64,000 nt of DNA from Diacronema lutheri (Eukaryota; Haptophyta; Pavlovophyceae; Pavlovales; Pavlovaceae), in the NCBI GenBank assembly GCA_019448385.1, contig JAGTXO010000001.1:2108001-2172000 (forward strand), written 5' to 3'. Position numbers and translations under genes: made by a program. Positions 38,483-59,775 of this stretch are shown in pieces (position 1 is the stretch's first letter; each line of letters starts with the position of its first letter). The notes beneath the pieces are model-generated. The model did not search any database. It saw only the letters and a program-made list of their open reading frames with translations, and was not told where the DNA came from.

Positions 38483-38483
<1 letters not shown>

Positions 38484-38522: not shown

Positions 38523-39890
38523 CGAGGCGTGCGCGGGGGCTTGGGGTGGGCTCCGGGTGCCGGCGCTGTGCCAGCGGCGGGCTTGGTTGACGCCGTCTCG
38601 CCGGGGCCCTTGCGCCTTGCGGCGCGAGCGTCGCGGAGGGGCGTCGGCTGCGCTGGCTCCGCGTCGGCGGTGGCGTGGGGCAGGCTCTTGTGGAGGGCGG
38701 AGCGCTCGCGCACGAGTCGGTTGCCAAGGCGGGCTGTCTGCGTGCCGTTGGGCTGCGCTTGGGCAGGTAGGACCTGCGGCCTCGGGGGCGGGCGGGTTTT
38801 CGTGTTGGGCCAGGCGGCAACGCGCACCGGCCGTGTTCGCGGCCGGCAGGCGGACGTCCGCAGCGGGGCGGAGAATGCGGGTGAAGCGCTTGCACGGGCG
38901 CGGTTCGCACCTGGCGGCCAGGCGATCACGAACCGTTGGGTCGCCCGGCTGTTTGGTGGAGCCGAGGGCAGCAAGGATAGCGAGCTTGGCCGCCTCATCG
39001 GTGACGAGCGGCACTGTTGCCCAGCTCTGTACCTCGAAGCCCTGGATGTGCAGGCGTCGGGGAAGTTCCCGGCAGCGTCGCCTGCGTCCGTCGAGAGGCG
39101 GACCGAAGTCGCGCCCGTGCCCCCGTTGGCGACACCGAGCTCTCGCTCGTTCACACCGGCCCGCCGACGCGGGCGCGTGGTGCGCGCGCGTTGGGTGCGT
39201 GTCTGCCTCGAGCAGCGTGCCCAGTCGCAGTGTGGGCGCGTGTCCGTCTGCCTCAAAACGCCACGTGGAGGGGAAGGCGCGGGGCGGGCTCGCCGAGGAG
39301 GTGCCGCCGCTCGCTGCCACCCGGCGCGGGCTCGGGGCAGCCGTCTTCGGGTGCCGCGCTCTTCGCGCCATGCACGAACGTTCCGCCGCGCTCGCAGCGC
39401 GCGAGCGCACACACAGAGCGCGCGGCGACCCCGGTGGGGGCAGTGCGTCCCGGTGGCACTCGCGGGCGCGCGCCTGGCCTGGGCGCAGCTGGGCGCGTTG
39501 CCGCCCGCGCAGCGAGCCGCCCGCGCGCCTCGCCGCGCGCGCGCTTCGTCGCACGCGTGCGCCCTGCATGCACGCGCACAGCGCGCGGCGGCTCGGCGCA
39601 GTGCAAGGCAGAGCGTGCTGCAACGGTTGCGAGGGCGCGCACGCGCGGCGCGGCGCGCCCCTGTGTGGTCGCCTGCGCGCGGCGCGTGGTCCGGACGCAG
39701 CTCGGTGGCGTGATGCCGTTCGTGCAACACAGTGCGCGTGAGAGCCGCACGTGCACACCTGCAGTGCAACGCGGCATTGCGCGCGTTGCGTGGGCGGAGC
39801 GCGGCTGGATGTGCTTGAGGTCGCGCAGCATGCCGCGCGCCGCGCGCTGTGCGGCGCAGCGAGTCGGCCATGCCCCTGGTCCTCGTCCCC

Positions 39891-39911: not shown

Positions 39912-40430
39912 TGGTGGTGGCAACCAGGATCCGCCAGCGCGTGGTGGGCGCCGTCCAACTCCCAGCCAGGATGCGCCCCGTTCTTCCCCGACACTCTCCG
40001 TCCAAACCCGCCGCCCAGCCTGCCGCCGCACCCGCCGCCAACGCCGCCGCGCACCCATCCGCCGAGCTCACCTCGCGCGCGCTCGCGCTCACGCTGCGCG
40101 ACGAGGCTGCGCAGGCCGGCGCGCGGCCGTGCAGAGCAGCGCAGGCCGGCGCGCGGCCGCGCGCGCGCGCTCACGTTGCGGCCGCGCAGCGAGCTTTCGC
40201 CGCGTCGCAGCCCCTCCGAGCAGCCACGATGCACGCCCCCGGAGGACGTTGGCCGCGCTCGGAGGCCGCGCTCGGGCGCGCAAAGAGAGGCGGCGCGGGC
40301 AAACGAGTAGGCTCGGCGCGCTGGCGGGTCCTGGTTGTGGGAGAGCGGGGCATTCTCCAGGGCATCATGTAAATTCTCCCAAGTATCATCCGGGCCGCCA
40401 TCCGGACACTGACGTGCCCACAGTCTGCAG

Positions 40431-43400
40431 ATGGAGGACTCCGTGAAGGACGCTTTGCCCGGCGGGCGGGGCGGCTCGGACAGTTTCTCGCTGGCCCTCA
40501 GCACCATTCTGTCGCCGGGAGATACCCACCCCCACGTGGTCCCATCCACTTGCCTCATCGCCCTGCTGCGTTACGCGGATTTCGGCACGAGCAGGGTTAG
40601 GGTGGGCGACACGGGGTGCTCGCAGCATGCGCTCAAGGTGGCGCTGCGCAACCTGCGCAAAGCATGCGCGGATGCGGACCGGTTTGGGCAGGTGCTCGTG
40701 GTCGTGCTACCGCTCTGCCTCCGCGCGTCCAGCGGCCTCGTGCACTGGACGGCGGCGTACCTGCTCCTCGCGCCGCCCGCGCAGCGCGGCGCGCCGCCCG
40801 GCGCCGCGCTCGCCCTGCTCGCCGATTCGCGCACCTTGGGCAACGGCGAATCGGCGTACGCCACGGCGGCCGGCGTGCTCATCAAGAAGCTTGCGCAGCG
40901 CATCGGCAGAACAGCGCCGCCCATCGATGCCTTCAAGGCGCCCCCGCAGAGTGGGGCCGCGTGTTGCTTCGCCGCGGCAACAGTCGCGGCCGAGGTCGTG
41001 GCGAGCGCATCGACGCTCTACGGCCGCCGCGCGAGTGTCCTTGTCGACATCAAGAAGGCTTTGGACGCGCGCCTCGCGCGCCTCACGACGGCCGCGTACG
41101 AGGAGACCCGCGCGCGCACGCTCCGCGCCGCCATCGGCGCTCTGCTCGGCGACCGCGCCAGGCGCTTCGGCCCGTTCACCCGCGAGGCCGCGCGGCTCGC
41201 CGAGGCCGCGCGGCTCGCCGAGGCGTGCGATGCCAGTGTCGGCGGATCCGCGCCCGACGGGCTGCTGCAGGCCGTCGAGGCGGCGCTGCGCGCGCCCGAC
41301 GACCGCATCGCACGCACGGCCGCGCTCGACGCGCTCACGGGCGCTGCAGGCCGCGCGCTGTCGACGGCGGCCAGGCCGCGCGGCGCGGCGGCGCCAAGGC
41401 CGCCGTCGCGAGCGCCACCGCCGCGTGCGCCGCAGCGGCGCGCCGCCTCGGCGTGGGGGCCCCGACCATTCAGCAGCCTCGGCGGGGGCGAGGGCGACGG
41501 GGACGATGGCGACGCCACCACCGCTGACGACGGGGAGGGCGCGGAGGACGGGGACGACGACCCCGCGGGCGCGGCGGCTGCGGCGGTGGCGACGGGCACG
41601 GCGGCGACGAGCGCGGTGGCGGCGGGCGCGGCGCCAACCTCGCCGGCGGCGGCGGACGGCGGTGGCTCGGCGCCGCTCGAACGCCGCTGCGTCTACACTG
41701 CGCCTGATGAGGGCGACGCGGACGCGCGCGTGTACGACGCCAAGGACCCCGAGCAGCTAAAAGCGGGCAGGGCGCGGCTACGGGCGAACAGCGGGCGCGC
41801 GCCCGCCGTGGTCGACACGCTTTTCGCGCACGCGACGGGCACGATCGTCACGCGGCAGCGCACGGAGGGCGTGACCGGCGCGGGCATGCACCACCTCGCC
41901 GCCCCGACGCAGGGCGCGGGGTACGGTACCGTCGTGCGGGCCGAGCTGGGCGAGCCCGGCTTCGCGGGGACGACATGGCACATGACGTCGGGCGTGGAGA
42001 ACCAGCCGCGCGCGGTACGAGCGGCCGCGCGCGCGTACGCGCACGACGGCTGGGGCGGCGTGTACAATGCGCACGAGGACTTTGCCGCCTTCGAGGGCTT
42101 GCCGCGGCTCGCCGCGCCCGAATCGCTCGCGGCCATCGCCGGCGGGTCGGCGGACGCGGTGTTCTGCTGGCGGTCCGGCCGGTCCGTCATCGGCGAGGTG
42201 ACGACGGTTCACTTCAATGGCGACCGCGCCGCCGCCATCGACCACGCGCGGGCGCTGCGCGTCAGGCCCGATTGGCGCTCGCAGCCCAGGATCTACGAGG
42301 CGGCGTGCGGCGCGGAGGGCACGGTGCTGCTCGTGTGGGTCGTGCCCGACCGTCACAAGAACCCGCGGCTGGACTGGGCGCCGATTCTCGTCGTGATCCA
42401 CCTGCCCGCCGACCCCGACTGGCTCGCGCGCGCCACGCCGGCGATCGCGAAGGCGCGGCGCGAGGTCGAGGACGGACGCGCGCGCGCGGAGGCGCGCGGC
42501 GTGCCGCAGCACCTCGCCTACACGCTGAGCCCACGCTTCCGAGGCACCGCGCCGCGCGGAGCCGCGCGCGTGCCGCCGCGCCTCGGCGCGAGCGACGCGC
42601 GCGAGGCGCGCGCGCTCGCGGCGCTCGAGCCGGCGCTCATGTTCGCGCCGGCCTGGCGGCGCGCGGTGCGCGCGGCGAGCCGCGCCCCCGGCAGTGGCGC
42701 CGCGGCCGTCGAGCGCGCGCTCGCGCGCCTGCACAACGCGCTCGAGCCCGATGACGAGAGCGCGCCCGAGTCGACGCGCGTCGCGCCGCTCGCCGCCGCG
42801 CTCGAGCAGTCGGCGGGCTGGCCGGCGGGCACGGCGCGCATGGCGGCAAGCGTGACCAAGGGCCCCGGCGTCGGAGATGGCGCAGGTGGCGACGAAGTGA
42901 CCAAAGTGGAGGAAACGGCGAAGACGAGCGGCGACGGCTGCACCGGCACGCCTCCTCTGCGCCCGGCCGCGCGCGCGGCCGGCGCGGCGGACGACGGAGG
43001 GGCGGCGGTCGTGGCGGGCGTCGAGGGCGAGCGCGACGCACTCGCCAAGACGGGTGCCGGCGGCTGCGACGACGACGCTCGCGAGCCGCTGTCGGCCGGC
43101 AAGCCCGGCGCACTCGCCGCCGCGGCGACCGTCGGGGGTCTCGGCGAGCTCGTCGGCAGCCTATGCGCGTGGCTGGCGCGCGGCGCGGCTGGCGGCGCCA
43201 TCGCGGCCATCTCCCCCGGGACGGCCGCGCGCGGAGCAAACGGCACGCCGCAGCGCGCCGAGCCGCCGGCCGCCGGCGATCCCGTCGCTCCGCACGCGCG
43301 CGTCGCCGCTGCGGCGCCCTTGGCGGGCAGCGCGGCGGCGCCGTCGTCGGCCGCGCGCGACGCGCAGCGCGGCGTCGCGGGAGTCGACGCGGCCGCGCAC

Positions 43401-46400
43401 GCGCACGCGCGCGACGGCAGGCGGGCGGCACGGCGGATGCGCGAGCACGAGGGGGCGGTGCACAGGGCCTTCCGCATGTCCCTCTGGCGCGACGCGACGT
43501 TTGTCGAGTTCGTTGAGAAGCTGCGCCCCGACGGCGGCGCGCAGCTGCTCGCGCGCGAGCCCACGCGGCGCGCGGCGGCGGTGCTGTGCGAGCTCGCGCG
43601 CGGCCGCGACGGCGCGAGCGGCGCGGCCGGGCTGCTGCACGAGATGAGAGCCGCCGATGCGCGCGCGCGCGAGGCCGCCAAAGCGGCGGAGGCAGCGCGG
43701 CCTGCGCACGGGACGCTGCGCATCGTGGCAACCGTGGCGCTGGGCGGTGCGGTCTTCGCCGGCATGTCAGCGCTGGTCGTTGCTTGCGCGGCGCGCACGG
43801 CGACCGGTGCGCTTTTTGGGGCCCGCCGCCCGCGGGCGGCCGCGCGCGGAGCCGACGACGCGCTCGGCACGCTGCAGCGCGCCGAGCCGCCGCCCGCCGA
43901 CAAGGGCAAGCGCAGGCGCGCCAGAGCCAACGACGACCCCGTCGACGCGGCGCGCAAGGCCGTGGGCAAGGCGGAGGGCAACTGCCGCAAGGCAGCCCGC
44001 CGGCTGCACCTCACTGCACTGGGCGAGGAGGAGGCGCAGCAGCGCGTGCTCGACGCCGAGGCGGCGGAGCAGCTGGCGCGCTCGCGCGAGCCGGCCGGCG
44101 GCTGGGTAGGCAGCGCGCGCGCGCGCGCGCGCGCGCGCCCCGCCGCGCGCGCGCCCGTCGATTGGCGTGCGCGCAGCGCAGAACGGCGCGCCAGCTCCGT
44201 CACCTGCGCGCCGCCGCGCCCGTGCCCCTCGCGCGCAGGGGCGCCCTGCGGACCTGCGGCTGCAACAGGCGCACTTTGGCATGCGCGAAGATGCCGACGC
44301 GGAAGTGCGCCGCGCGCACGAGGCGCTGCGCCGGGCGAGACAGGGTGTGGCGTGCGCCAAGGCCAGCGTGCGGCAGATGGAGGCGGCGTTGCTCAACGCG
44401 ACGCGCTGCGCCACCGCGGTGCTCGCGCCGCGTGGCGTGCCGGAGGGTGACGAGCAGGCCGCGGCGAGAGAGCAGGCGGCGCTGGACCGGGAGGCGCCGC
44501 CGGCCGCGCAACGCGCGGCGCCGACGGCGCGCTCGCCCTCGGAGCCGCCGTCCGAGTGGGGCCCGCCAGCGGTCGGCCGGCGCCCGACGCCGCGTGCACT
44601 GTCGCACGCCGCGGGTCGCGGGGACGACAACCCGTTTGCGCCGCTCGCAACCGTCAGCGGCGATTGGTCGCCCACGCCGAGCTCGCGCTCGCCGTCCTCG
44701 CCGCCGCGGCAGCCGCCGTCCGACCGCCGCAGCGCGCAGCGTCGCAGCGCGCGCGCGCGGCCGCCGAGGCCGACCGTTTCGCCCGAGGACGCGCTCGCAG
44801 CCGAGCGCCAGGCGCGCGCGCTGTCGGAGCAGGCGGAGCAGAGGCGCGCCAAAAAGGCCGCCGCCAAGGCCGCGCGCCGCGCCGCGCGCGCCGCCGACAA
44901 GCGGACGGCGCGCGTCGTCCACGCGTGCGTAAGCGCCGCCTTGCGGCGCGTCTGCACGAGCGTCGCCACGGGCACGCCGCTCGCCGTGCTCCGCGAGCGC
45001 GCCGAGGGGCCGCGCGCGCCGAAGCCCGCGCCCGCGCCGCCACGCCGCGCAGCGGACGGCGGCCGCGCGCTCCGCCACGCGCGCCGTGCGGCCGCCGCGG
45101 CGGCGGAGCGCGAGGCGGCGGTGGCGGCCGACGCCGACGAGCGGTTCGAGCGGCAGCCCTCCGCCGCCCGGTTCGACGGCGGCGATGGCGGCGGAGGCGG
45201 CCACGTCGAGGCGAGCGCGCGACCGCGCGCCGGCGAGGCCGGCGAGGCTGGCGCGCACGGCGCGCCTGGCGCAGCGGGGACCCCGGCGGCGTCGCTCGCG
45301 TCGCGCAGCCCGTGTGATGCGCGCCGCACGGCACGCCTCCCGCACGCACGCGCCGCAGCCACCTGCGCACGCAACGGCGGCTGGGGTGGCAACGTCGGCG
45401 GCGACGTGTGCGGCGGTTGTTTCGGCGGCGGCGGCGTCCGTCGCGACGCCTGCGGCGGCGGCGACGCCACCTGCGGCTGCGGCGATGGCGGCGTCGGTGC
45501 TGGCGCTGGCGAGGCCCCTGCACACGGTGCGCCGGCGCGCGCGACGGCGTCGCGCTTGCTGCGCTTGCTCGGCGCGCCACGCGCCGTGCTCGGTGCGATG
45601 GCGCACGCCGCGGCCGTGTTGGCGCGCGGCGTGGCCGCAGCCGTCGCTGGCGTGCGCGCCGCCGCGCGCGCCGTGCGGCGCGCGCGCCGCCGAGCGCCTC
45701 GCGCGCGCCGCACGGCTGCGCGGCGGGCTCGCGGCCCGCCGATGCGCGACGTCGACGGCGCCCTGCGGCCCTCGCCGTCCTGGTTGCGCACACGCCTCGT
45801 CTGCGGCCGGCGCCTCGCGCCTCTGCGCCGCGCGGGCGCGCGCCCGCCGCCCGCACACGCCGCGCCGAGTTCCCGCGCGCGCGCTGCGCAACCCGACAGC
45901 GACGCGCCGGCGTGCGCGCCGCGGCGCTCGGCGCCTGTCGGTGCGCCGCCGCGCGCGCGTGGCCTGCGCGCGGCGCGCGCACGGCGCTTCCTCGACGTCG
46001 CCGGCCGCGCGGCGCGGAGCGCGCGCCTCGGCGCGCGCATCACGCGCCAGCGCACGCCGGGTTCGCCATCGGAGCCCTGCACGGCCGAGAGCGGCGACGG
46101 CGCGGGCGCCGGCGGCGTCGGCGCGGCGGCGCCTGGCGCGGCGACGATGCGCGCCACCGGCGCGCGCGCAGCGCGCGCTGCGGCGGCGGCGGTCGGTGGC
46201 GCCTCGCGTCTCGCGCGCCGCGCGATGGCAAGCGCCGCCGCCGCTGCCACCTCCATCGCCGGCGCTGCCGCCTCCACCGTCGCCGCCGCCGCCGTTGCCA
46301 TCGGCGCGGCCGTCACGTCACCGGCGTTCGCCGCGGCGCGCGGCATGGCGGCCGCATGCGTCGCTGCCTGCGCCCGCCCCACCGCCGCGCAGGCGGCCGC

Positions 46401-48686
46401 GTCGCGCGCGCTCGGCGCGCTCTTCGTGCTCGTCGACGCGGCCGACGCGGCGGGCGACAGCGACGCCGCGCTCGGCGCGCTCGCGGCCGCGGTCGACGCG
46501 ACGGAGCTGCGCCCGCCGCCGGCCTTTTGGCGCGCGGGCCGCGCCGCGGCGTACGCACCGCGTCCGCCGCCCCTCGACTCGGCGCGGCCGCGCTACAACC
46601 GGCGCGCGCGCGCACCTAGCCCTCCCGTCGCGGCCGCGCGGCGCAATCTCGCGCGCGCGGTGCGCGAGCTCACGCGCGCCGCGCGCGCTGAGCGCGAGCG
46701 CGCGCCGGCGCCGCGCGGCGCGCGCGGCGGCGTGCTCCACGCGCTGCGCGCGTCGCTCCCCGTGCACGCGCGTGCCGCGCTCGGCACGGACGCGGAGCTG
46801 CGCGCGGACATCGCCGCGTTCGCGCGCGCGCGCCGCGAGCTGCACAGCCTCACCGACGCCGAGGTGGCGGCGCTCGCGCGCCCGGACGGGCCGCCGCTGC
46901 CCGTGCGGCTCGCGTGCACGGCGGTCGCGCGCGCGCGCGGCGTGACCGTGCTGCTCGACATCGTGCCGCGCGGCGGCGGCGCGCCCGAGCGGCTCGTGTG
47001 CCGCGCCCGTCGCCGCGGCGCCGCCACGCGCACGCCACGGCCGACAGCCGCCGTTATCGCGCGCGCGCCTTGCATAGCGGCGCGCGTTGGCCACACTGAG
47101 CCGGCGCGCGCGTGCGCGGGCGGATCGATCGGGGTCGCGCGCCTCCGTTCAGCGCGCCGCCGCTCTTGGCGTGGGGCGCGGCTCGACGTGCACACCCGCG
47201 AGCGGCTGGCCACACCGGTGCCAGGCCACGTCGTGGCCTGCGCCGCCGCCTCGGCCATCGGCGCGTGCGTCGCTCGCGCGCGGCTTGGGCTTGCACGGCT
47301 GGCGCGCGCGTGGCCCTGCGCCTCCGCTCCACTGGCCACTGCTGCTGTCGCCTTCGCGCCTGCCGCCGACGGTGTTTTCTGCGCCCCGCTGGGCGCTCCT
47401 GCATCCGCCTTCGCGCCTGCCGCCGACGGTGTTTTCCCCGCCGCACTAGCCGCTGCTGCATCCGCCTTCGCGCCTGCCGCCGATTTTCCCGCCCCACTAG
47501 TTGCTCCTGCACTCGCCTCCGCGCCAGCCACCGACGGCGTTTTCCCCGCCCCGCTAGCCGCTGCCGCTGTCGCGTCCGCGCCTGCCGCCGCGGGCGTGTC
47601 CTCCGCCCCACCAGCCATCGCCGCCGCGCCCGCCGCCAACGTGCGCACCGCCAACGTGCCCGTTGCCAACGAGGCTACCGCCACCGAACCAGCCGCCCTT
47701 GAGCTTCCCCTCCAACCCGCCAACTCGGCGCTGCTTGCGTGGGCGGGCGACGCGGCTGCGCGCCGGCTGGCCTCCGCCGCCGCGAGCGCCGGCCTCCCGC
47801 AGGCAGAGGTGGAGCGCATCGCCAGCGGCGACATGCTCGCCTCAACCGTCGACGCGTGCTGCGAGGTCGTGCTACGCGTGCACGGGCAGGCCGGCGGCGG
47901 GCATGTCTGCCACGTGCCGCTCGCCGCGCAACCCGCGGTGTTCCAGGACGGCGCCGAGCGCGCCGCGCTGCTGCACCGCCTGCGCAGCGAGGCGACGACG
48001 CAGGCTGTCATCGGCGTGTGGAGCCCGTCGGACGAGCGCGGCGGCGCGGGCGGTGACGACGGCGCGCAGCTCGCCTCCGGCCATTTCACCGCGTTGCGCC
48101 TTGTGCGCGTCGCGCGCGCGGGCGAGCGTCGCTACGACGCGGTGCTCGTCGACACGCTCGCGTCGCCCTGCAGGCGGGCGCTCGTGCTCGCCACGGCGAT
48201 AACTGCCACGCTGCACGCGGCGGGTCTCGACATTTCGCGCGTGCGCCGCGCGCGGCTGCTCGACGAGGCGGCGCAGCGTGGCGCGACGTGCGGCCTCGCG
48301 ATAGTGGGCGCGCTCAACGACGCGCTCGCCGCGGCGGGCTGCTCGTCCGCGCCGCGCACGTTCAGCGTGGCGGACATGTACGCTGTCGGCGAGCGCCTCC
48401 GCGTCGCGCTGACCGGCGCGGCCAGCGATCGTGCGCCGGGCGGCGTCTGCGCGGGCACGAGCGCGGTGCGTGGCGGGGGCAGCCCCGATCGCGCCGAAGC
48501 GCCGCCGCAGACGCGCGTCGCCAAGGCCGCCGCTGGCGTCACCGCCGCCGCCACCGCCGCCGCCACGCCGCCGCCGCCCGCGCTGGGCGCCGCCGCCGCC
48601 GCCACCGCCGCCGCCGCCGCTGCTGCCGCCGCCGTGGCCGCGCCGTCACCGCCGCCACCGCCGCCGCCGGCCGGCGACGCGGGCGA

Positions 48687-48759
<73 letters not shown>

Positions 48760-51700
48760 GCCGCGCGCACGTTCTTGAAGCTCGCGCCCAGGGCGCGCGC
48801 GGCCGCCTCGGCGCGTGAGGCGTTGCGCGCCGCGTGTGCGCGCGCGGACGCGGCGGCGTCGTCACACGCGTCGGCGCCGCACGCGCCCGCCGGTGCGCGC
48901 CGCCGGCGGCGCGCGGGCGCAGGCGAGCTGGCGCTCGCGGCTGCGCGCGCGCTCGCCTCGACGGAGCACGGCGATTTGACGGACGACGCGCTCGAGGCCG
49001 CCGTCGAGCAGGAGCTGGGCGACGAGCGCGGCCAACTGCTGCTGTGCACGCGGGGCGCAGCGGCGCAAAGGCCCGCGCTTTGCCGGCTCCTGAAGCACGC
49101 GTGCGCGTCGGCGCGCGCGGCGAAGCGCGCGCAATTCACGGTGTTCGTCGTGCGCGCGCCCACGCGCGGCGAGCGGGGGGGCGCCGCCGCGAGGCGCGTG
49201 GACTCGGTGGTCGAGCTGTCGTGCGCGCTGCACGAGAAGGCGGGCGCGCTCGGCGGCCTCCAGAGCGTCTGTGTGCGTGGCTTTGCCCTCGAGCGCCGCC
49301 GGACACTCGACGGTGGCGCCGAGGCCGGCGCGTCCGCCATCGGCCAGGACGAGCAGGTCGAGGCAGAGGCGGGCGAGGCGTGCGTCGCCGGCGTGACGAT
49401 GGCCAAGCAGCTGCGTCAGTTTGCCGAGCAAGCTGCCCGCGACGACGTGCTCTTCCGCGTCGCCGTGTCCGAGGCCGACGCCCACGCCCGGCTGGCGCGC
49501 GTTGCGGGTGACGATGTCGGCGCGTACAGCGTCGTGCTCGCAGTCGCCGGGCTCGTCTGGCTGGCCAAGGCCGACGAGGTTGCGCCGGCGGCCGCCCAGT
49601 CCGCCGCCGCGCCGCCCGCCGCCCCGCCTGCTGCCGCCACGTCCGCCGACGCCGAGCGCGACGCCTCGCCTTCCGACCGCCTGCGCGCGCTGACGCTCGC
49701 CGTGCGAGTCGCGCTCGCGCGCGGCGTGCTGCGCCACCTCCTCGCCGACGCGTCGCCGGGCGCGTCCGCGACCGCTGGCGGTAGTTGCGCGACGCCCGTC
49801 GAGGCGGCCGCGTCCGACGCCGCGCCGCCCGCCACGGGCGTCGTGACGAGTGGCGTCGCGGCGGGCGCTGTGGCGGCCGCACCGGCTGCTGCGGGCGGTG
49901 CGACGGCGGGTGCATCGCCCATCGCGCGGCCGGCGAAGCGCGCGCGGCGCACGCTCACCGCCGCTCCAGCCGCCTCGGCCGTTGCGGCCGCTGGAGGCGC
50001 ACGCGCTGGCGCACGCGGCGCGGCCGGCGCGCCTCGCGCGCGCGCCGCGCGCGCGCCGGCCGAGTACGTCTGGCTTGCCATCGCGCGCCGGATGCTGGCG
50101 GCGCGACACGCGGCGGCTGCGGGCGGCGACTTTGTCGCGTCGTGCGTCGCCGCGATGCAGGCCGAGTACGGCGACGGCTGTGCCGTCGTCGTCGGCGACG
50201 CGCCTGGTGACGCCTTGGTCGAGGCTGCGGCGGCGGCGCTGCTCGAGGGCAAGCACGCGGCGGTGAGCCTCGGCTGCGTCGACCGGCCGGCGGTGCTCGT
50301 CGTGCAGCGCGCCGTGGATGCGCCCACGTCGCGCGTGCACGGGTGGTGCGCGCACGCGGCGGGCGCCGCCGAGTTTGACGAGGGCGCCGCGCGCGACGTG
50401 TTCAACGCGATCGTCGAGCGCGCGTGGGCGCTGCGTCCGGACCCGGCCGACGGCAGCCCGCCGCCCACGCGCACGTGGGAGGTCGGGCGCATCGCTGGCG
50501 ACGCGCCCGACCAGGCGGGCGTGGCCGCGCTGCGCGTGCTCTACGCGCTCGTCGCGGCGCACGGCCGCTACCGCTCGGCCGCCGCGCTCTTTGGCGCGCT
50601 CGCGCAGCTGCACGCGCCCGACGCCGCCGGCGCGCGCGCGGAGGTCGTCGCGGCGGCGTGCGCGGTGCCGCACGGCGCGCGGCCGGGCGCCGCGCCGGCG
50701 GCCGCGCGGGACGACGCGAGGGAGCGCGCATGGGAGGGCGCTCAGATCGCCGCGCTCGCCGTCGGCGCGGACGCTGCGCGCAGGCGTGTCGCGCCCGTGC
50801 GCGCGCTCGTCGACGCGCTCGGCACGCCGCCGACCTCGGCGATCACGGGCGGGCCGGCGGTGCGGCTCGCGGGCGCGGGCGACGGCGGCCACGGTGCACG
50901 GTGGGTGGGCGGGCAGGCGGCGACGCCCGCCGAGCAGCTGCCGAGGGAGCTGCTGCGCGCCTACCACGAGGCGGTGCTGTGCGTCACGCCCGGCAGCCTC
51001 CAGCTCGGCCCGGCGGCGCTCGACGCGGTCACGCGGCCGCGCGAAAACGACACGCTGGAAGGCCTCCTCGCGCGCGTCAGCTGGCAGTGCGGCGCGAGGG
51101 CGAGCACGTGCGCCATGCTCGCCACGTTTTCCGAGCAGGCGGGCACCGGCTCGCGCGTCGCGCTCAAGGCCCTCCGCACGAGCTCCGACCTGGCCGGGCT
51201 GACGGCGGCTGCGGTCGGGCAGCAGGCGCCGCAGACGCCGCCGCCGCCGCTGCTCGTGATGCTCGGCCGCTGCTCCAGCCCGCTCGTCGGCGGCGGCCTC
51301 TTCCCGCCCGACCGCGCGACGGGCGAGCCGGCGGTGCACGCGGCGACGTCCGAGCTCGCCGTCGAGCTGCTGCGCGACGCGCGCGCGCTGGCCGGCACGG
51401 ACGGGCGGCTCGTCGTGCTGTGCCTCGAGGCGTCCAACCCGCTCTGGTTCTGCCCCAAGGTGCGCGAGCTCGAGCTGCCGCGGACGCGGTCGGACGGCGT
51501 GCGCGCGTCCGGCTGCACCTGCCCCGCGACGTGCAGCGATGCGCGCGGCGCGGCGGGTGGCGCTGCCCGCGGCGCATCGACGCGGCCGGCGGCGCGCGCG
51601 ATCAACAAGGCGGTGCTCGACCACTTCGTCGCGCTTTTCGGCCGCGAGGGCTTCGCGACCTTTGAGTTTGCGGGCGGCGGCGAGGCGAGCTGGCTGTGCG

Positions 51701-54700
51701 ACAGCGCGGCCGGCACGACGACCGTCGCGGCGTGCGCGTCGCTGCCGCCGCGCATGGGCGATGGGCAGCTGGCCATCCGGCGGCACACGCTCGGCACGGG
51801 CGCCGACGCGCCGGCGCACGCCGTCGTCTCGCTCCGCGTCGCGCACGTGAGCCACGCCATCCGCCGCGCGGCGGACGACGGCGGCGCGCGCGCCGAGCGG
51901 ATGGCGCGCGCCGCGCGCGCGTTTTGCGATGTGGCGGCCGCGCTGCGCGTCGACGCGATCCTGGCGGAGGTGCCCGAGGACCGCCCGACGGGCACGCCCT
52001 TCCTTGGCGGGCTGCTCGAGTTTTGGAACAAACGCCACGGGAGCTGGACGGCGCCAGCCACGCTCGCGCTCGGAGACGTGCGCGAGGCGGCCAAGCGGAC
52101 GGCCGACGCAGCGGCCGGCCGAGCGGACGAGGTCCCTGCGGCTGGCCGTCCGCAGGTCGCGGCGCGCGCGTGCGCTGGCGCGATTGGCGGCGGCGCGGGC
52201 GCGGCGGGCGCCTCGGACGCTGCGCCGCGTGCACTGGCGGGCGCGTCGGGTGCGCGCACGGACGGCGGCCCTGCCGACGCACCGCGCCAGCTGGAGAGCC
52301 GCTACGGCGAGGCGAGCAAGCTCGACCTACCCCAAGATTCCACTACGGGCCGCGTCCTCGACGCTCGCGAGGCCCAGGACCGCGCGCGCGTGCCTGCTGC
52401 GCCCGACGGCACAGCGCTGCGCCGCGTGCTCGACGCCGTCGGCGCGGGCGCGCCCGCGCAGCGCAGCCCGCGCTGGCACGACGAGCGATGGGAGGAGGTC
52501 ACGGGCAGCAAGGTTGGCGACGTCGTGAACGACAACGCCGGCGTCGCGCACGAGACGCTCACCGACGAGTACGTGCACCGGCGGCGGCGCGAGGTGCGGA
52601 CCAAGGCGACGACCGCGGGCATCCTCGGCGAGGCCGTCGCGCTGCGCAAGCTGGCGGCCGCGTACGGCATCACCGTCGTGTGCAACCTGCCGATGGTGCG
52701 TGCGGACCCGCACGACAAGAGCGCGCCGTTCGCCTTCTCGCCGGACGGGCTCGCGATCCTCCCCGAAAACAACGAGCAGGTCCTCGTCGAGGTGAAGACG
52801 CTCACCAAGGCGGGCGCCACGGCGCACGAGGACGGGCCGCCGCAGCCGCACCGCGATCAGCTGCAGCTCGGCATGCACGTCCTCGGCGTGAGCAAAGCGC
52901 TCTACGTGCAGTACCTCAGGCACGAGGACCGGATCGTCGTGCACGTCGTGACGCGCGGCGCCGGCTGGCTTGCATTCGCGCAGCCGAGGGTGCAGGCCTT
53001 CTGGGCGCGCGTCGTCGAGCGGCGCGCGCGGCTCGAGCGCGCGCGCGCCGACCACCCGGCTGCGAGCCGGCGGCACCGGCGGCAGCAGACGCCGGCCGGG
53101 CCGCCGCTCGTGCTCGCGCTGGACGGGCGCATCCCCGCCGCGCGCGCCGCCGCGCTGCACGCCGTCGCGCACGGCACCGCGAGCGCGGCGGCGGTGACGG
53201 CGGCGGCGGCGACGGGCGACGCGACGGCGTTGCAAGACGCGATCGCGGCGCTGCGCGCGCCCGTCGGCAATGCGGCGATCGCCAGCGCAGCGCGTGCGGA
53301 GGGCGCGGCCGTCGAGCGGGCGATCGCGTACCTCGGGCAGCCGGCGGGCGACGCCGCCGCCCGCGGCACGGCCGAGGCGGCCGAGGAGGAGAGGACGGTC
53401 GACGCCGACATCTGCGCGTTGCTGCACCAGCTCGGCGCGAGCGTGGCGCACGTGCACGTCGAGGACGCGGATTGCGTCACGCGTGAGCACTGGGGCGAGG
53501 CGGTGCTCGCTGCAGCGGACGACCCGTCGAGCGCCCCCGCCATTTCGAGCGTCATCGTCGCGCACATCGTGCGCCTCGCCGGCTTTGGCGTCGAGCTCCC
53601 GCAGTCGATTCGCGTCGCCCCCAGCACGGCCGACTGGCACGAGGGCTGGCTCGACGTGCAGTGCGTGCTGCTGCGCACGCGCCGGCGCGGGCGGCGCGAC
53701 GACGACTTTGTGGCCGTCGTCAGGCGCGGTGGGCGCTGGTTTGCGTGCGAGCCCGGCCGCGCGCGGCGGCTGCAGTGGCGGTCGGTCCTACGCCGCGCGC
53801 GCGGCGGCGTCGACGGGACCGGCGAGGAGGCGTTCGCGATCGTCTACGTGCGGCGCGGCGACGCGGCCGGCGACGCGGCTGGCGACGCGCAGGCCGCACG
53901 GGCGCGCGGCGGGCGCGCGCGCAGGCGCACGCGCGGCGGCACGCGCAAGCGCAAGCGCGGCGCCTCCGCCGGGCTCGAGGCGGCCGCGCCCGCCGGCGCG
54001 CCGGCTGCCGCGCCCGCCGGCGCGCCGGCGGGCGCTGCTCACCGCCCGCCCGCCATGCGCGCCACGGTCGCCGCGCGCACCACGCGCTCTGTGACCGACG
54101 CGCTGCACTCGGCGCCTGCCGCCACGGTTGCACCTGTCTTCGACTGGCGCGCCGGCCGCCCGCCCCCCGCCGCTCGAGCCCGCCACCCGCGGCCGCGTGG
54201 GCGCGCGCCACCGGGCAAGGCCTGGGACAGCGTCTCGGGTGCGTGGGCGGACAAGCCGACTGGTGCTGCCGTCGCCGCCGCGCCGCCGCCGCTGCCGCCC
54301 GCCGCCGCGCCGCCGCCCACCGCCGCGCCGCCGCCCGCCGCCGCGCCGCCGCCCGCCGTCGCGCCGCCGCCCGCCGCCGCGCCGCCGCCGCCGCCGCCAC
54401 CGGCGGCGCTCGGCCGCCGGCAGCACGTCGGCGCGGGCGGCAGCGCGGCGGGCCGGCGGCTCGCGGCCATCGCACGGCGGCAGCGCGGCGTGCGCGCGCC
54501 GCCGCCCGCCGCGCGCTTCCTCGCCACGCTGCCGCCACCGCCACGCGACGGCCTCGCGCGCACGAGCAAGCAGGCGCGCGCGAGGCGCAACGCGGACGGA
54601 CGGCCGGCGCACGCGCGCGCGGCCAACGCGCGCGCCTTCTACCGCGGCGTGGAGCTCGGCGTGCACGCGACGCGCGCCATCGTCGACGCGCGCCACGCCG

Positions 54701-57700
54701 ACCTGCCGCAGGCCGTCTTCGTGGCGGAGGCGCGGGCGATCGTCGCGCGCTCCGCCGGCGGCGGCGCGCTGCTCGCGCCGGACGACGTGCGCGACCTGTG
54801 CGACGCGCAGACGGACGCCGATCGCGCTGCGATCTGGGCGTCGGTGGGCGCGCACGAGGCGACGCGCATCTTCGCGCTCGTCACGCGCAACGCGAGCTTG
54901 GCGGGCGCGGCGCTGCTCGTGCTGCACACGCCGGCGGGCGCGCCGGCGCGCGCGCTCGGGCTCCTGGCGACGCGCTCGCGCGCGCCGTCGACGGGCGCGC
55001 CGCGCGACGCGCACAGGGCGCTGGTGCAGCGGTTGGACGTGCTGATGGACGCGATCGCCGCGGCGCGAGGCGCGTCGCCGCTCGAGCTCGAGCTCGCGCT
55101 CGCGCCCGAGCCGCAGAGCGCGTGCAACGCGCGTGCGGCCGCGCTGCTCTGCCTGCAGGCCGTCGCGGACGCGAGCGGCCGTCCCGCCGCTGAGGACGCG
55201 CTGGCCGCGCTCGACGACGCGCGCGGCATCGACCGGCACTGCCACGCCGTCCGGCAGCAGATCGAGGCGAAGCTCGCGTGGCGGCGCGCCGACGGCGCCG
55301 TCGGCGTTGACGGCGCCGACGGCGCGCCCGCGCTCGCGCCTGCCGCCGCACCGCCGGCGTGCGCGCCGGCGCACGCTGCCGGCGAGGCGGCGGTCGACCA
55401 GGCGATCGTCACGCGGGTGCGCGACGCGCTGCGCGCGTGGGCGACGACTGGCACCGCGCCCAGCGCGGCGGTGCTCGACGACGCCTGCGCCGCGTACACG
55501 GCCCGCGCACGCGCGCGCAAGGACGCGCGCACGGCGCTGGGCCCGACGCGCGCGGCCGAGCTGCTCGCCGCGGCCGCGCGCGGCGGAGCCGACGGGGCGG
55601 ATGCCGCGCGCGCGCTGCTCGGCGGCACGCCGCGCCTGCTCGTCGTGCTCCTCTGCGTGCCCGTCGCCGCGCCGTCCGGCGAGCCGCCGCGCCCGGTCGG
55701 GCTGCTCGTCGCCGACCGGCCGACGGACGACTCGCGCCCGGCCGCGCTCGTGCGCTACGACTTTGCGCCGCTCGACGCGGACGTGGCCGTCGCGGTCGGC
55801 GCGCATGCCGTCGCGCTGGCCAGTGCGATCTGGCCGCTGCTCGCGGCCGAGGGGGAGCCGCGGCCATCGCCCGTCGTGCGCTCGCAGCCGCGCGGCGGCG
55901 ACGATGGCGCGCGTGCGCTCGCAACGTTCGCGTGCCTCGACGCGCTGATGACCGCCAGCGTCGGCGCGCACGGCCTCGCGGGCGGCGCGGGCATGCTGCC
56001 CGCGCTGGTCGCGCGAGGCGCCGCGGCCGCCCAGCGCGAGCGGCAGCTGCGCGCGGCCGCCGAGAGGCTGGGCGGCACGGTCGCTGGGTGGCCGGACACG
56101 GGCGCGAGCGCGGCGGGCGCGAGCGTCGACGAGGAGGCGCGCACGTACGAGGTCGAGGCGGTCGTCGACGAGCGCCGCAAGGCGGGCAAGAAGGTGACGT
56201 TCCAGTTCCGGATCAGGTGGCGGGGCTACGACGAGAGCGCCGACACGTGGGAGCCTGAGGCCAACGTGAGCAGCGACCTCGTCGCCCAGTTCCGCAAGAC
56301 GCGCGACGAGCAGAAGCGGCGCGCGGGCGTATCGGGCAGCGGCAGCGGCGGCGCGGGCGCGGCGTCGGCATTGGCGTCGGCGCCGCTTCGCGCGCACGGC
56401 GAGTCGGGCGCCGCGGGCAAGCGCGCCGCGGCGGGTGCCGCCGCGAGCGCGCGCGACGCCGCGGGCGCGCGCGCGCCGAGCGTTCCCCGCGCGCGCGGCG
56501 TCGAGCGCGCGCGCGTGGACGAGCCCGCTGCGCCGAGCGCGCGCGCCGCCGGCGGCGCGACGGCGCGCACGCGCGTCAGCGTGCTCCCGGGCTTCGTGGT
56601 CAAGCGCTCGACGCTCAACGCGGGGCCGCAGGCGGTGACGGCGCAGCCCGGTGCGCGGAAGGAGCTGCGGCGCATCGCGGCGGCCGTGCACAGGCTCACG
56701 ACACAGGCGTACCGCGTCATCAACAAGGTGGTGCGCGACGAGGCTGCGGTGGCGAGCGCGCAGGCCGTCGGCGCGGCGTCGGGCGGCCCGTCGACCAGCG
56801 TGCACACGTCGACCACGATGGACAAGGGAACCGTCCGTGCGATCTTCTCGGCCATCGGCTGGCACAAGGACGAGAGCACGTACGGTGCAGCGCCCCGAGG
56901 CAAGCCCGCCGAGCAAGCCGCCGCGCAGACCAAGGCGGCGACGGCGCGCGCCGTCGGCGAGATGGCCGAGGGCGTCCAGCCCGTCTGCGCGGTGGGCCTC
57001 ACGGAGATCCTCGAGGCGGAGGCGACGCAGGTGTCCACCGCGTGCCTGATGCATCCATCGCGCGTCGTGAACGGGCTGCTCCGCGACGTCGTCCGCGCGG
57101 CAGTCGAGCGCGACGAGGCGCTCGTCGCGCTGCCCGAGATGCAGCGAAACGCGCGCGTGCGCGAGCTGTGCGAGCGGCTGCTGCGCGGCGACGTGGAGGG
57201 CGCGCGCGTCGGCTGCCCCGCCGCGCTCGACCGCCACCTGCCCGACATGGTCCTCCACAAGATCGACTACAAGTGCACGCCCACGAAAAGGTGGAACTAC
57301 GACCGGCACACGACGCGCTACTTCCTCGTGCAGATCCGCACCCTGCAGCACGTGGCCGAGGGGCAGGCGCTGCTCTGCCGGCTCGCGCACATCCACACGC
57401 AGCTGACCGGACGGCCGCCGCGGTACAATGTGGCGCCGCTGCGCACGCACAATGTGCGCGCGAGGCGTGGCTGCCGCTGCCGCCGCCGAGCGCCCAAGCG
57501 CGCGCGCCGCCGCCGTGCGCGCCGCCCCGCGGCCAGGTTGGTCACGCGCCCGCGCGCTCGCGCGCCGCGCGCTGCGCGCAGGTGCCGCGCAACGTGCGCC
57601 TCGCCGCGAGCGCCATCTGGGTGACGCTTTCGGATGACGAGCGCAAGGAGCTGCGCGCGCGGCTCAAGGCGCTGGACCTGCGCGACCACGATGGCGAGCC

Positions 57701-59306
57701 GATCAAGTGGACAGGCACAAACGGCAACACCCCGCCGATGTCGGACGTGCGCGTCAGGTACGCGGTCTTTGCGACGCGCTTCGACATCTCCAACCGCGTC
57801 TTCGACTACGCCGGGCGCGAGCGGCCGCCGGCCGATCTGCCGTGGCACGCGCGGCGCTCGTGGGTTGGCCTCGCGCCGCTGCCGCGCGTGCCGCTCCCGG
57901 GCCGGCAGCCCGTCAAGTCGGTGGTGACAGATGGCGTCGCCGTGCACGCCGTCGGGACCGTCCTCGTGCCGAAGGCGCAGGCGCCGGCCGGCGGCTCGGG
58001 CGTCCTGCACCGCTGGCGCCGGCCGGACGGGCGCATCGCCGTCGCGCTCGGCTCCGAGCTGCGGCGGGCGATCGACGTCGAGGCGGCGGTCGTCGTCGCG
58101 GCCGACCCGAACATGGGCAACATCACCACCTACTCTGCGCACGTCGGGCGGGCGGCCGTCTGGCGGCAGTTCACGCAGCGCGCGCGCGCGCGCGCCGCGG
58201 GCTTTGCGCGCGAGACGGCCAAGACCAACGCGGCGCGGCGGCGCGTGCGCACCGACGGGCGCGGCGAGGAGTTCAGCGTGGAGGCGGACGAGGCGCGGCT
58301 TGGCGAGGCGCACAGCGCCAAGGTGCTCGACGCGGGCAAATACATCGCCTTCCACCGCGAGAGCGCGCGGGTGCGCGAGCGCGCCGCCGAGCACGTGTAC
58401 GACGCGCCGGCGCGCCGGAAGGAGCGCTGGCGGCGCGACAGCGGCGGGCGGTCCAACGCGGCGCGCGTCGCCGAGGCGCTCATCGCGGCGCACTGTGTCG
58501 ACGGCGTGACGCGCGACCGGCTGCTCGTGTGCGTGGGCAAGTGGCTGCGCGACCACAAGGGCGCGCAGCCCAAGGGCGCGCCGCCCGCCTTCCAGGTGGG
58601 GCTGCTGCGCGAGCTGCGGCGGCGCGGCGTCGCGGCCGTCTTCGTGCCCGAGCCGTACACGTCGATGCACTGCTCGATGCCGCGGCTCGCCAAGGGCGGC
58701 AGGCTGCAGCGCTGCGGCGCGGAGCTCGCGCAGAACCCGCGCCTGCCCGTGGCAAAGGGCGGCACGCGCACGGTGCACGCGCTCGTCATCTGCCCGGCGT
58801 GCAACGGCGGCAAGAAGCCCGTGCACCGCGACTACAACGCCGCGCGCAACATCTTCTACGACGTGCACGACATGGCGGCGCACGCGGCCGGGCGCGACAC
58901 CACGTCGACGCCTGAGCGCTTTGCCCTCGTGCTCGCCTGGTGGGCGCGCGGCGAGGTGTGGGAGCGTGAGGAGCGCATGGTGCACGGCGAGGGCGACGAC
59001 TGCGACGACGAGTGCGACGGCGACGACGAGGGCGACGACGAGGGCGACGACGACGACGACGACGATGGCAGCGGCGACGGCGGCGGCGGCGAGGGCGACG
59101 GCGACGGCGACGGCGACGGAGGCGGCGGCGGCGACGACGACGATGACGGCGGGGGAGGCGGCGGCGGCGACGGCGGTGGCGACGACGGCGGCGGGCGCGG
59201 CGGCGGTGGCGGCGGCGGCTCTCGCGCCCGCACCCCCGCCCGCGGAGCTGCCAGCGCCAGTGCCGGCGGCGGCAGCGCGCGCGGGCCGAAGCGCGGCCGG
59301 CGTTGA
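40431..59306 (+). CDS. Giant multidomain protein: C48-like proteases, YqaJ nuclease, chromodomain, Fanzor nuclease
   Basis: Three long open stretches in two frames join cleanly if two small GT-AG introns (44106-44238, 57454-57581) are removed, giving about 6,200 residues. From the ATG at 40431 the order is: a C48/Ulp1-like protease domain, an Ala/Gly-rich acidic linker, an unknown globular region (about 41800-42700), a hydrophobic helix (about 43724-43790, IVATVALGGAVFAGMSALVV), a coiled coil crossing intron 1, low-complexity sequence, a second C48-like domain, degenerate C48-like copies, a YqaJ-type nuclease, two more degenerate copies, a chromodomain, and a Fanzor nuclease ending in an acidic Asp/Gly tail and GPKRGRR. 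Codon bias is strong throughout. It may be one polyprotein cut by its own proteases, or several adjacent genes whose boundaries are hidden by scarce stop codons in GC-rich DNA. Domain calls are firmer than the single-gene model. Confidence 0.55.
40700..41000 (+). other. C48/Ulp1-like cysteine protease domain 1
   Basis: Residues about 90-190 of the giant protein. The order His105 (LVHWTAAYLL), Asp132 (LLADSRTLG), Gln173 and Cys178/179 (PPQSGAACCFAAA) reproduces the Ulp1/adenain catalytic set His-Asp-Gln-Cys. Spacing is 27, 41 and 5 residues, close to Ulp1 itself. Such enzymes cut after Gly-Gly in SUMO-like proteins or at polyprotein sites. The assignment rests on motif order and spacing only. 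Confidence 0.6.
44106..44238 (+). other. Candidate intron 1 of the giant gene, 133 bp
   Basis: Starts GTAGGC and ends CTCGCGCGCAG. It falls exactly between codons, and removing it joins two halves of one coiled coil (AEQLARSREPAGGW to GRPADLRLQQAHFG). The inside is mostly CG dinucleotide repeat. The acceptor matches those of the other two candidate introns in this window. Confidence 0.6.
47860..48400 (+). other. C48/Ulp1-like cysteine protease domain 2
   Basis: His (codon 48082, SGHFTALRLV), Asp (48151, AVLVDTLASP), Gln (48274) and Cys (48289, DEAAQRGATCGLAIVGAL). Spacing is 23, 41 and 5 residues; the last two intervals equal those of domain 1. The Cys-Gly-Leu context is typical of the Ulp1 clan. 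This is the better of the two matches. Confidence 0.7.
48688..48756 (+). repeat. (GCC)23 triplet repeat encoding poly-Ala
   Basis: Twenty-three perfect GCC codons within the giant gene, just after protease domain 2. This is a likely disordered hinge and a site prone to length change. Confidence 0.95.
50040..50700 (+). other. Degenerate C48-like domain copy
   Basis: The pattern resembles domains 1 and 2 (AVLVVQRAVDAPTSRVHGWC, then GDAPDQAGVAALRVLYALVA). Val stands where the catalytic Cys would be and no equivalent His is clear. Probably a non-catalytic paralogous module; the call is tentative. Confidence 0.35.
52460..53040 (+). other. YqaJ/lambda-exonuclease-like PD-(D/E)XK nuclease domain
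   Basis: Begins SPRWHDERWEEVTGSKVGDV, continues with an alpha-helical TKATTAGILGEAVALRKLAA, then the active site: Asp at codon 52744 (FAFSPDGLAI) and Glu-Val-Lys at 52789-52797 (QVLVEVKTLT). It ends HRDQLQLGMHVLGVSKALYV. This is the layout of YqaJ-type 5'-3' exonucleases used in viral and phage recombination. All three key residues are present, so it may be active. Confidence 0.8.
54640..56080 (+). other. Two further degenerate C48-like copies in tandem
   Basis: The first copy (about 54640-55230) keeps Gln and Cys (LAPEPQSACNARAAALL) and aligns with domain 1 around LGLLATRS versus ALLADSRT, but lacks His and Asp. The second (about 55410-56070) keeps Asp (GLLVADRP) and Gln (SQPRGGDDGARALATFAC), with Asp in place of Cys. 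Both appear to be inactive modules related to domains 1 and 2. Confidence 0.45.
56143..56310 (+). other. Chromodomain
   Basis: Reads YEVEAVVDERRKAGKKVTFQ, then FRIRWRGYDESADTWEPEAN and LVAQFRKTRDEQKRR. It has the aromatic cage positions Tyr, Trp and Tyr and the WEPE-N signature. Chromodomains bind methylated histone tails, mostly H3K9 or H3K27, and steer some retroelement integrases into heterochromatin. It sits about 550 residues before the Fanzor active site. Confidence 0.92.
56587..59306 (+). other. Fanzor (eukaryotic TnpB-like) RNA-guided nuclease domain
   Basis: Matches the published Fanzor pattern D-X(125-275)-[TS][TS]XX-C4 finger-X(5-50)-RD. The first Asp lies in VVVAADPNMGNITTY (codon 58104). 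Then, 185 residues on, come EPYTSMHCS, RCG and CPAC forming a four-Cys finger, then PVHRDYNAARNIFY with the last Asp at 58830. Upstream, DMVLHKIDYKCTPTKRWNYD and PPRYNVAPLRTHN fit Fanzor N-terminal lobes, and VPRNVRLAAS continues after intron 2. Fanzors are guided by an RNA from the element's own 3' end. The middle RuvC acid is unclear: where many members have Gly-Asp or Gly-Glu the sequence reads CVGKW. Activity is therefore uncertain, while family membership is strong. Confidence 0.9.
57454..57581 (+). other. Candidate intron 2 of the giant gene, 128 bp
   Basis: Starts GTGCGC and ends TGCGCGCAG, between codons. Splicing joins YNVAPLRTHN to VPRNVRLAAS, which matches how Fanzor proteins read across this point. 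An alternative acceptor at 57536 gives an 83-bp intron in the same phase but adds 15 residues of low-complexity sequence. Confidence 0.7.
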
Positions 59307-59775
59307 CGCACGGCCGAGCCGCGCAGCGGTCGACGCTTTGCGGGCTCTGCCCAGGTCGCGCGCGGCTGGCGACGCGTGCCGCGCGCGGCACGACCGTGCA
59401 CGCCGCCACCCGTGGCCGAGCGCGCCGCACCAGCCGGCCCGCTCCAACCGCCGTGCGGATCACGGACGCTCGCTACGGCTCGTCGGCGCGCGTCACCTGC
59501 GCCGGCGGCCACGGCGCCGTCTGCTCCGGCCTCGTCGCGAGCAGCCCGACCGCTGCTCGCCGCCCGCACGCCGCCGCAGCAACGCTGCGCGTCGTGCTCC
59601 CCCGCTCGCCAAACGCGAAGAGCTCCCTCACAAGGACGTCCTTCCGAACGGCCCGCGCTGCACTCGGGGCGCGATCGTGCCCCTGATCGGATTTGGCTTG
59701 ACCATCTATACGGCCGACAGACGACTGACAGAGTTTTCGTGGTTGGCAAATTGGATGGCAGTTGCGCGCACGCGC
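59307..59775. other. Region 3' of the Fanzor gene; possible guide-RNA region
   Basis: No gene is recognised with confidence. A plus-strand frame holds VRITDARYGSSARVTCAGGH, faintly like an SUEL-type lectin repeat, but this is likely chance. The last 100 bp (59690-59760) become A/T-richer, with palindromic bits around CGGCCGACAGACGACTGACAG. In TnpB/Fanzor elements the guide RNA is made from the 3' end of the gene and the flank to the element's right end, so this is where it would lie. Confidence 0.35.

Follow-up and report, generated by a model that had tools for sequence, protein, structure and literature searches.

A giant reading frame joining a Fanzor nuclease, a chromodomain and a RecE-type exonuclease in a high-copy mobile element of the haptophyte Diacronema lutheri

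The window analysed here is a stretch of 64,000 nucleotides from the genome assembly of the haptophyte Diacronema lutheri (GCA_019448385.1, contig JAGTXO010000001.1), and all positions below refer to it unless a contig is named. Its segment 28663-59712 represents a single copy of a mobile element that occurs in high copy number, in part in very recent copies, and the only intact gene found in this element is a giant one, beginning at 40431 and ending at 59306. It is well supported that a Fanzor, a chromodomain and a recombination exonuclease are united in one reading frame of this gene. With moderate confidence, we interpret the whole as a Fanzor-carrying transposon with a multi-nuclease polyprotein that would comprise a RecE-type exonuclease, a chromodomain, a Fanzor and two C48-like sites. 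The element and the parts of its giant gene are as follows.

28663-59712, plus strand: whole mobile element, 31,050 bp, delimited by copy comparison, flanks beyond both ends varying by copy
40431-44105, plus strand: exon 1 of the giant frame, by open frame and codon preference
40743-40967, plus strand: C48-like site 1 (H, D, Q, C in order), a residue pattern without profile support
44106-44238, plus strand: proposed intron 1, GT-AG, 133 nt, between codons
44239-57453, plus strand: exon 2 of the giant frame, by open frame and codon preference
48082-48291, plus strand: C48-like site 2 (H, D, Q, C in order), a residue pattern without profile support
52450-53025, plus strand: RecE/YqaJ nuclease of the lambda-exonuclease type, with E, SPDG, EVK and Q in place
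56146-56298, plus strand: chromodomain, by Pfam and PDB matches
56560-57453, plus strand: probable N-terminal half of the Fanzor, by inspection and without a profile
57454-57581, plus strand: proposed intron 2, GT-AG, 128 nt, between codons
57582-59306, plus strand: exon 3, the Fanzor RuvC part with an acidic, Gly-rich tail, by Pfam profile and published motif
58104, 58614-58853 and from 58824, plus strand: Fanzor RuvC landmarks (first D, TNB zinc ribbon and HRD, respectively), by profile and motif

A first-pass annotation, made from the sequence letters, had described one collinear coding stretch, free of stops except across two GT-AG segments, and this description was borne out. Stop-to-stop frames on the plus strand span 1,345 codons (40413-44450), 4,504 codons (44110-57624) and 1,015 codons (56259-59306), with no in-frame stop in 40413-44105, 44110-57621 or 57582-59303. 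Joined from the ATG at 40431, the three exons make 6,204 codons without a stop. A codon-preference score was trained on the HECT gene upstream of the element (13759-28656) and applied to 63 scoring windows of 300 bases between 40.36 and 59.26 kb. The proposed path is preferred in 60 of them, beginning in plus-strand frame 0 (40.4-44.0 kb), passing to frame 1 (44.2-57.2 kb) and returning to frame 0 (57.5-59.0 kb). The exceptions, at 44560, 48460 and 54160, score higher in an antisense frame, and two further scoring windows fall just below zero. Changes of the preferred frame occur near the GT-AG gaps, thus placing the frame switches at the two proposed introns, in agreement with the segments that had been put forward. 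In a related 29.2-kb copy of the element the proposed introns carry one and two substitutions, none of them at GT or AG. Extensive low-complexity stretches rich in Ala and Arg were also observed in the giant frame. Exon 1, with the first C48-like stretch, may or may not belong to the same protein as exons 2 and 3: the 21.5-kb class of copies lacks exon 1, and exon 2 has an early ATG of its own.

Pfam scans within 40.4-59.7 kb covered the coding path and, additionally, 56259-57581 and 58510-62769 on the plus strand and 53788-57663 on the minus strand. All three domains of the central claim, which the first-pass annotation had named, were recovered at their places. The chromodomain matches Pfam Chromo at 6.7e-12 (49.5 bits, cut-off 25.1), with a best PDB match of 8.3e-9. 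The exonuclease matches the RecE-like PHROG profile at 3.2e-16 and stays below the cut-offs of Pfam YqaJ (0.0029) and NCBIfam lambda-exonuclease (3.2e-6), while a PDB sequence search with this piece returned chance matches only. Its residues E, SPDG, EVK and Q, at 52627-52858, are ordered as in lambda-type exonucleases, and we presume that their roles are the same. For the Fanzor, the match to Pfam Cas12f1-like_TNB (1.9e-6) lies just over the cut-off (28.4 bits against 26.3), that to NCBIfam TnpB (0.017) lies under it, and a PDB match to Cas12f1 falls at the right place at chance level (E 0.25). The Fanzor/TnpB motif D-X(125,275)-[TS][TS]xx-[C4 zinc finger]-X(5,50)-RD, as given in the consulted part of PMC3627910, is present in exon 3, with D at residue 175, TSMHC at 360, four cysteines, and HRD from 415. 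By this published motif, the C-terminal part of the giant frame is classed as a Fanzor. Three queries taken from the element, namely its exonuclease, its helicase gene and exon 3 of the Fanzor, disclosed no relative in IMG/VR, and searches of the polyprotein for HUH and tyrosine-recombinase patterns gave uninformative matches only. Long frames are terminated by a Fanzor also in other families of this genome (L096:2141-7180, 1,680 codons; L097:1062-5294, 1,411 codons), and 13 matches with an identical top-but-one score suggest a second multi-copy family.

The claim of C48-like domains with intact catalytic residues stood in part. The residues H, D, Q and C do occur in this order at both sites, and support from profiles or folds was not obtained. 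The pattern H[WF]-D[STP]-Q-C, which was set after inspection of the sequence, occurs exactly twice, compared with a mean of 0.066 in block shuffles, of which 2 in 500 reach two occurrences. At site 2 the four residues are unchanged in 4 of 4 copies, as are 177 of 215 gap-free columns. Models of both stretches by AlphaFold2 without an alignment were too poor to use (pLDDT 41 and 44), and Foldseek with the second model found nothing at E<=0.001, returning LOV-domain noise. C48 identity of the two sites is possible but unproven, and self-cleavage of the polyprotein is a hypothesis drawn from these two residue patterns. Elsewhere in the genome, Peptidase_C48 exceeds its cut-off at L103, L107 (C102:59161-60954) and L101 (C86:177693-178289), with frames of 1,460 and 1,892 codons. 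In addition, a stretch of exon 1 near C48-like site 1 (41800-42500) resembles by eye a PD-(D/E)XK nuclease, as if a protease-nuclease pair had been duplicated; the profile scans (Pfam, PHROG, NCBIfam) lend it no support.

To delimit the element, its copies were compared throughout the assembly of 43,492,796 bases in 103 contigs, where the window corresponds to C9:2108001-2172000. The exonuclease piece has 132 scored matches with 99-100% identity in this genome (132 of 238 candidates were scored). At the 3' side, 18 of 19 aligned loci terminate within 59698-59720, and the end was placed at 59712; L018 stops at 59701 owing to a contig end, and L019, having no match there, was dropped. At the 5' side, placed at 28663, 12 of 16 fetched loci match the window, and 11 of these 12 show the junction or start with it; L037, L040, L042 and L043 are unmatched at that distance, and L035 lies entirely within the element. 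Sequences flanking both ends are different in each copy read. Tolerating up to two mismatches, the end patterns were located at 227 places (3') and 203 places (5') in the genome, and at none in reversed controls; the mobile element is present in some two hundred recognisable copies. Among the first 100 places for each end, 69 pairs lie on the same strand 8-40 kb apart, a few of which may be chance or nested. These pairs form length classes of 30.95-31.08 kb (31 pairs), 29.1-29.4 kb (9), 26.0-26.9 kb (7) and 21.4-21.6 kb (12), with 10 others, and sum to 1.94 Mb of the 43.5-Mb genome. Over 2.1 kb, 12 of 13 internal 3' ends show 0-13 substitutions relative to the window (two show none at all), and the remaining one (L031) shows 45.

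The ends of the element are sharp, reading (C/G)TATATA(C/G)GG... at the 5' side and ...CCATCTATAC(G) at the 3' side. Terminal inverted repeats (TIR) were not found, as the two ends are not inverted repeats of each other. No target site duplication (TSD) was visible: the mean length of the longest word common to both flanks was 3.90 bases for 21 same-copy pairs, the same as for 847 cross pairs. A TSD could be hidden by chimeric assembly, and all left flanks were also compared with all right flanks; the longest shared word in the 847 cross comparisons has 9 bases and is not convincing. With respect to Crypton-type ends, the 5' CTATATACGG and the 3' CTATACG have CTATA in common, again with no TSD visible in the 21 pairs. 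With respect to Helitron-type ends, the element does not have 5'-TC and CTRR-3', and DNA folds of its ends, where a Helitron2 would have hairpins, are weak (z -2.1 at 5'; z -0.3, unremarkable, in the last 80 nt at 3'). The element frames scanned contain no match to the Helitron Rep (HUH; Helitron_like_N) and none to a tyrosine recombinase, and the element was therefore left unclassified. The RNA fold of its last 180 nt is weak (z -2.2), and Rfam gave no match over the window at gathering thresholds.

Two other assignments were considered and rejected. A telomeric element was suspected as the 3' end coincides exactly with the end of some contigs; the 5' end likewise coincides with contig starts (C32, C49, C72), and one-base indels were found in 5 of 6 contig-end copies read and in 0 of 13 internal ones, so that these contig ends look like assembly breaks and not like telomeres. 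An LTR retrotransposon was dismissed since no repeat of at least 60 bases joins the two ends and the frames scanned yielded no match to a reverse transcriptase.

Two subfamily copies were read, one of 29.2 kb (C30) and one of 21.5 kb (C14), and both keep the giant frame. The former matches the window at 98.6% over 35105-59712. The latter retains 28664-31040 (99.7%), 32641-37414 (87-96%, with gaps) and 47615-59711 (98.1%), and window positions 31041-32640 are largely absent from both. In place of 37.4-47.6 kb the 21.5-kb copy has a 2.4-kb substitute that runs on into the same frame. The resulting frame of 4,190 codons includes C48-like site 2, the exonuclease and the chromodomain, and the Fanzor exon comes after it. 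The swapped N-terminus of this copy scores positively in its own frame in 7 of 8 scoring windows and ranks first among the six frames in only 4 (one tie), hence its coding status is weakly supported. Residue identity of the domains to the window is 95-98% in the 29.2-kb copy (five regions) and 81-100% in the 21.5-kb copy (four regions). A rearranged relative at the end of C49 (L098) also holds parts of exons 2 and 3 in open frames with 79-92% residue identity.

Comparison with these copies indicates constraint on the frame. The 29.2-kb copy differs from the window by 204 substitutions in the frame, none producing a stop, and by indels of 3, 33 and 3 nt. The 21.5-kb copy differs by 185 substitutions, likewise without a stop, with dN/dS of 0.54 and a synonymous excess (69 of 185, p 0.0002), most of which falls in 47.6-49.6 kb. 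Its indels are +3, +3, a +5/+1 pair 12 nt apart, and -30. Altogether, no stop was gained in 204 + 185 = 389 substitutions where about 5 were expected (p 0.005). Other copies add frame indels of -24, +33, +18 and +3. If the +5/+1 pair is taken as a single event, the giant frame is kept by all of its indel events (11 of 11), whereas the corresponding count for 34.1-40.4 kb together with the 3' end is 6 of 25 (p 2e-5). This figure flatters the case, since five of the 11 events lie in codon repeats (48686, 48687, 53983, 54180, 54293), where steps of three are expected, and one outside event is common to both copies. With these removed the counts become 6 of 6 in the frame and 6 of 24 outside it (p 0.0016); with two further events near a GCC tract removed, the count in the frame is 4 of 4 (p 0.01). 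Not counted among the 11 events are the frameshifting indels, also 11 in number, that three contig-end copies (L016-L018) carry in the Fanzor exon. A +1 in L010 (one and the same copy as L016) was set aside too, as was L003, whose alignment breaks off near 53.4 kb. A frame of 4,400 codons or more is present in 84 of the 132 scored copies (63 of them at 4,495-4,521), and 15 have one of 3,900-4,399 codons.

The first-pass annotation did not mention the mobile element, its broken PIF1 helicase, its fragment of ubiquitin carboxyl-terminal hydrolase (UCH), or the subfamily with a swapped N-terminus. Further features of the element, outside the giant gene, are listed here.

30662-31548, no strand assigned: nested inverted repeats, GTGTAGG-rich motif, 95-99% complementary, partly specific to the 31-kb form
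33042-34132, plus strand: PIF1 helicase remnant, spread over two plus-strand frames, dN/dS about 1.2
36236-36502, plus strand: UCH fragment, Pfam 5.4e-6
59307-59712, plus strand: 3' untranslated end, the region in which one might expect a guide RNA

Breaks in the helicase frame fall where the protein profile runs on, and this part of the element evolves neutrally. Just upstream of it, 128 bp (32845-32972) are 92% identical to DNA on C63, with an agreeing reading frame. The genome has a single Helitron_like_N match (E<=0.01), and the C63 DNA in question follows 1.7 kb downstream of it on that strand; the PIF1 helicase is probably a Helitron relic. Neither element end is present in the 14 kb read around this Helitron match and one frame there holds ankyrin repeats; the C63 locus is thus itself no intact Helitron. 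Long runs of C and G (37398-37505, 38024-38104, 38471-38565) lie between the helicase relic and the giant gene. As for the insertion site, the window copy occupies a narrow gap between two convergent host genes. Its start lies 6 bases past the stop of a 4,965-codon HECT/WW frame (13759-28656), and about 65 bases separate its other end from the 3' end of a ClpB-type AAA frame encoded on the opposite strand (59776-62931). The HECT frame holds tandem repeats of 54 bp (16888-17612) and 33 bp (24728-24976), both multiples of three.

Four other explanations were weighed against a transposon with its own multi-nuclease polyprotein. The most serious of them, which we rate as a substantial possibility somewhat short of probable, treats the element as a non-autonomous passenger of the Helitron type, with the giant gene as cargo and a Helitron elsewhere in the genome moving it by rolling-circle replication. 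The helicase remnant and the 128-bp similarity near the Helitron match speak for it, as do the lack of TIR and visible TSD and the Fanzors published in non-autonomous Helitron families of Chlamydomonas (PMC3627910, part consulted). It is opposed by the missing element ends around the C63 match, by the failure to match a Rep in the element frames scanned, and by ends that are neither of the 5'-TC/CTRR-3' type nor strongly folded. A little further from probable, and still realistic, is the presence of two adjacent genes, of which the first (40431-44450, without splicing) would encode a C48-like protein with some 1,340 residues and the second, from the ATG near 44278, an exonuclease-chromodomain-Fanzor protein with some 5,000. 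The first frame does reach its own stop at 44450 when unspliced, exon 2 has its early ATG, and the 21.5-kb copy exchanges exon 1 and the start of exon 2 for another N-terminus in the same frame. On the other hand, the signal of frame 0 is down to 0.06 at 43.96 kb, and at 44.26 kb, close to the proposed splice junction, frame 1 has taken over; the gap, too, is GT-AG and lies between codons. The earlier idea of a giant Fanzor polyprotein is accordingly upheld for the Fanzor, chromodomain and exonuclease in one frame and is tentative for exon 1.

The remaining two explanations were already disfavoured. Large DNA viruses also have exonuclease, helicase, protease-like and UCH parts, and with its broken-looking helicase the element might be a degenerating remnant of a virus or other large element, its copies kept by host amplification alone. 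The sharp ends at many unrelated sites, the very recent copies, the absence of a capsid or packaging match in the frames scanned with Pfam and the lack of an IMG/VR relative for the three query pieces make this very unlikely. A long frame arising as a by-product of G+C content near 80%, with no gene behind it, can hardly be credited. It would account for long frames on the opposite strand (up to 1,291 codons) and for the low-complexity stretches, but not for 4,504 stop-free codons, the codon preference in 60 of 63 scoring windows, the absence of stops in 389 substitutions, the in-frame indels and three recognisable domains on the same path.

Several observations weigh against the transposon with a multi-nuclease polyprotein. 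Relative to the 29.2-kb copy, the frame has a dN/dS of 0.84 and a proportion of synonymous changes, 59 of 204, that lacks significance (p 0.12), and 33 of the 132 scored copies have a frame shorter than 3,900 codons. Pfam Peptidase_C48 matches no piece of the polyprotein, PHROG and NCBIfam likewise give no support for C48, and none of the 9 Peptidase_C48 matches in the genome at E<=10 is in the element. Neither a transposase nor a Helitron Rep, nor a tyrosine or serine recombinase, was matched in the frames scanned, which leaves mobility unexplained. The Helitron link consists of 128 bp, with a tblastn score from a run without low-complexity masking, and what look like breaks in the helicase frame could be introns that went unrecognised. 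The case for a missing TSD is weakened since the element exceeds the PacBio read N50 of 23.5 kb given for this genome (PMC8379373, part consulted), so that some flank pairs may be misjoined; furthermore, the flank pair L039/L026, outside the 21-pair test, shares the 12 bases CGAGGACTATAT. Expression of the polyprotein is deduced from DNA sequence, and the guide RNA is hypothetical.

If the element is indeed a transposon with a multi-nuclease polyprotein, its giant gene would, after splicing, yield either a single very large protein or two of them, with a polyprotein of at most about 6,200 residues, or about 5,000 should exon 1 be a gene of its own. Its C48-like parts, or proteases of the host, would divide this polyprotein into functional pieces. 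A chromo-Fanzor piece, guided by RNA from the right end of the element, might then cut matching chromosomal sites, where the RecE-like exonuclease would resect the break and repair from a sister copy would retain or spread the element. For insertion at new sites, our first choice is a Helitron-like partner enzyme acting in trans, which would fit the helicase relic and the ends without TIR or TSD; the second is a recombinase that may be hidden in the long unassigned parts of the polyprotein. A bolder version, which we regard as rather unlikely, would make this a new superfamily without a conventional transposase, in which a self-processing polyprotein with a chromodomain-tethered RNA-guided nuclease and a break-preparing RecE-type exonuclease brings about recombinational copying of the 31-kb element.

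Comparison with known systems draws on the consulted parts of the papers cited. Fanzors are known in Helitron, Mariner, Sola, MuDR and IS4 elements (PMC3627910). The Helitron families CRe-1, 2 and 3 from the same source resemble the D. lutheri element in a Fanzor with the published C-terminal motif, in multiple copies and in the lack of TIR and visible TSD. They are small, whereas the D. lutheri element has 31 kb, its Fanzor is the C-terminal part of a giant frame with a chromodomain, a RecE-type exonuclease and C48-like stretches, and no Rep was found. With SpuFz1 and other characterised Fanzors (PMC10432273) the D. lutheri Fanzor shares the RuvC catalytic pattern and the zinc ribbon. Unlike them it is not stand-alone, being in frame with a chromodomain about 90 residues upstream and with other domains, and it is known from sequence alone. 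Its exonuclease resembles the RecE, YqaJ and lambda exonucleases of phages in profile match and in the order E, D, ExK, Q; in contrast to these it lies inside a eukaryotic transposon polyprotein, and no partner annealing protein was recognised. A chromodomain as part of a transposon polyprotein is also found in retroelement polyproteins with an accessory chromodomain (PMC6338049), from which the D. lutheri element differs in having no matched reverse transcriptase or integrase and no long terminal repeats.

Among the titles and abstracts that searches of open-licence PMC papers brought up, none describes a Fanzor fused with a chromodomain and a RecE nuclease, a protein of such size, or a 31-kb high-copy element, and there is a real chance that the element represents a new class. 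The D. lutheri genome paper reports 22.9% repeats, the annotated ones being mostly LTR and LINE, and its main text contains no word beginning with "transpos" (PMC8379373). If our interpretation is true, a recently active transposon would encode a giant multi-enzyme protein in which a eukaryotic RNA-guided nuclease is linked with a chromatin reader and with a recombination exonuclease. Because the host is in culture and many near-identical copies are present in its genome, the role of the Fanzor for its element would be directly testable.

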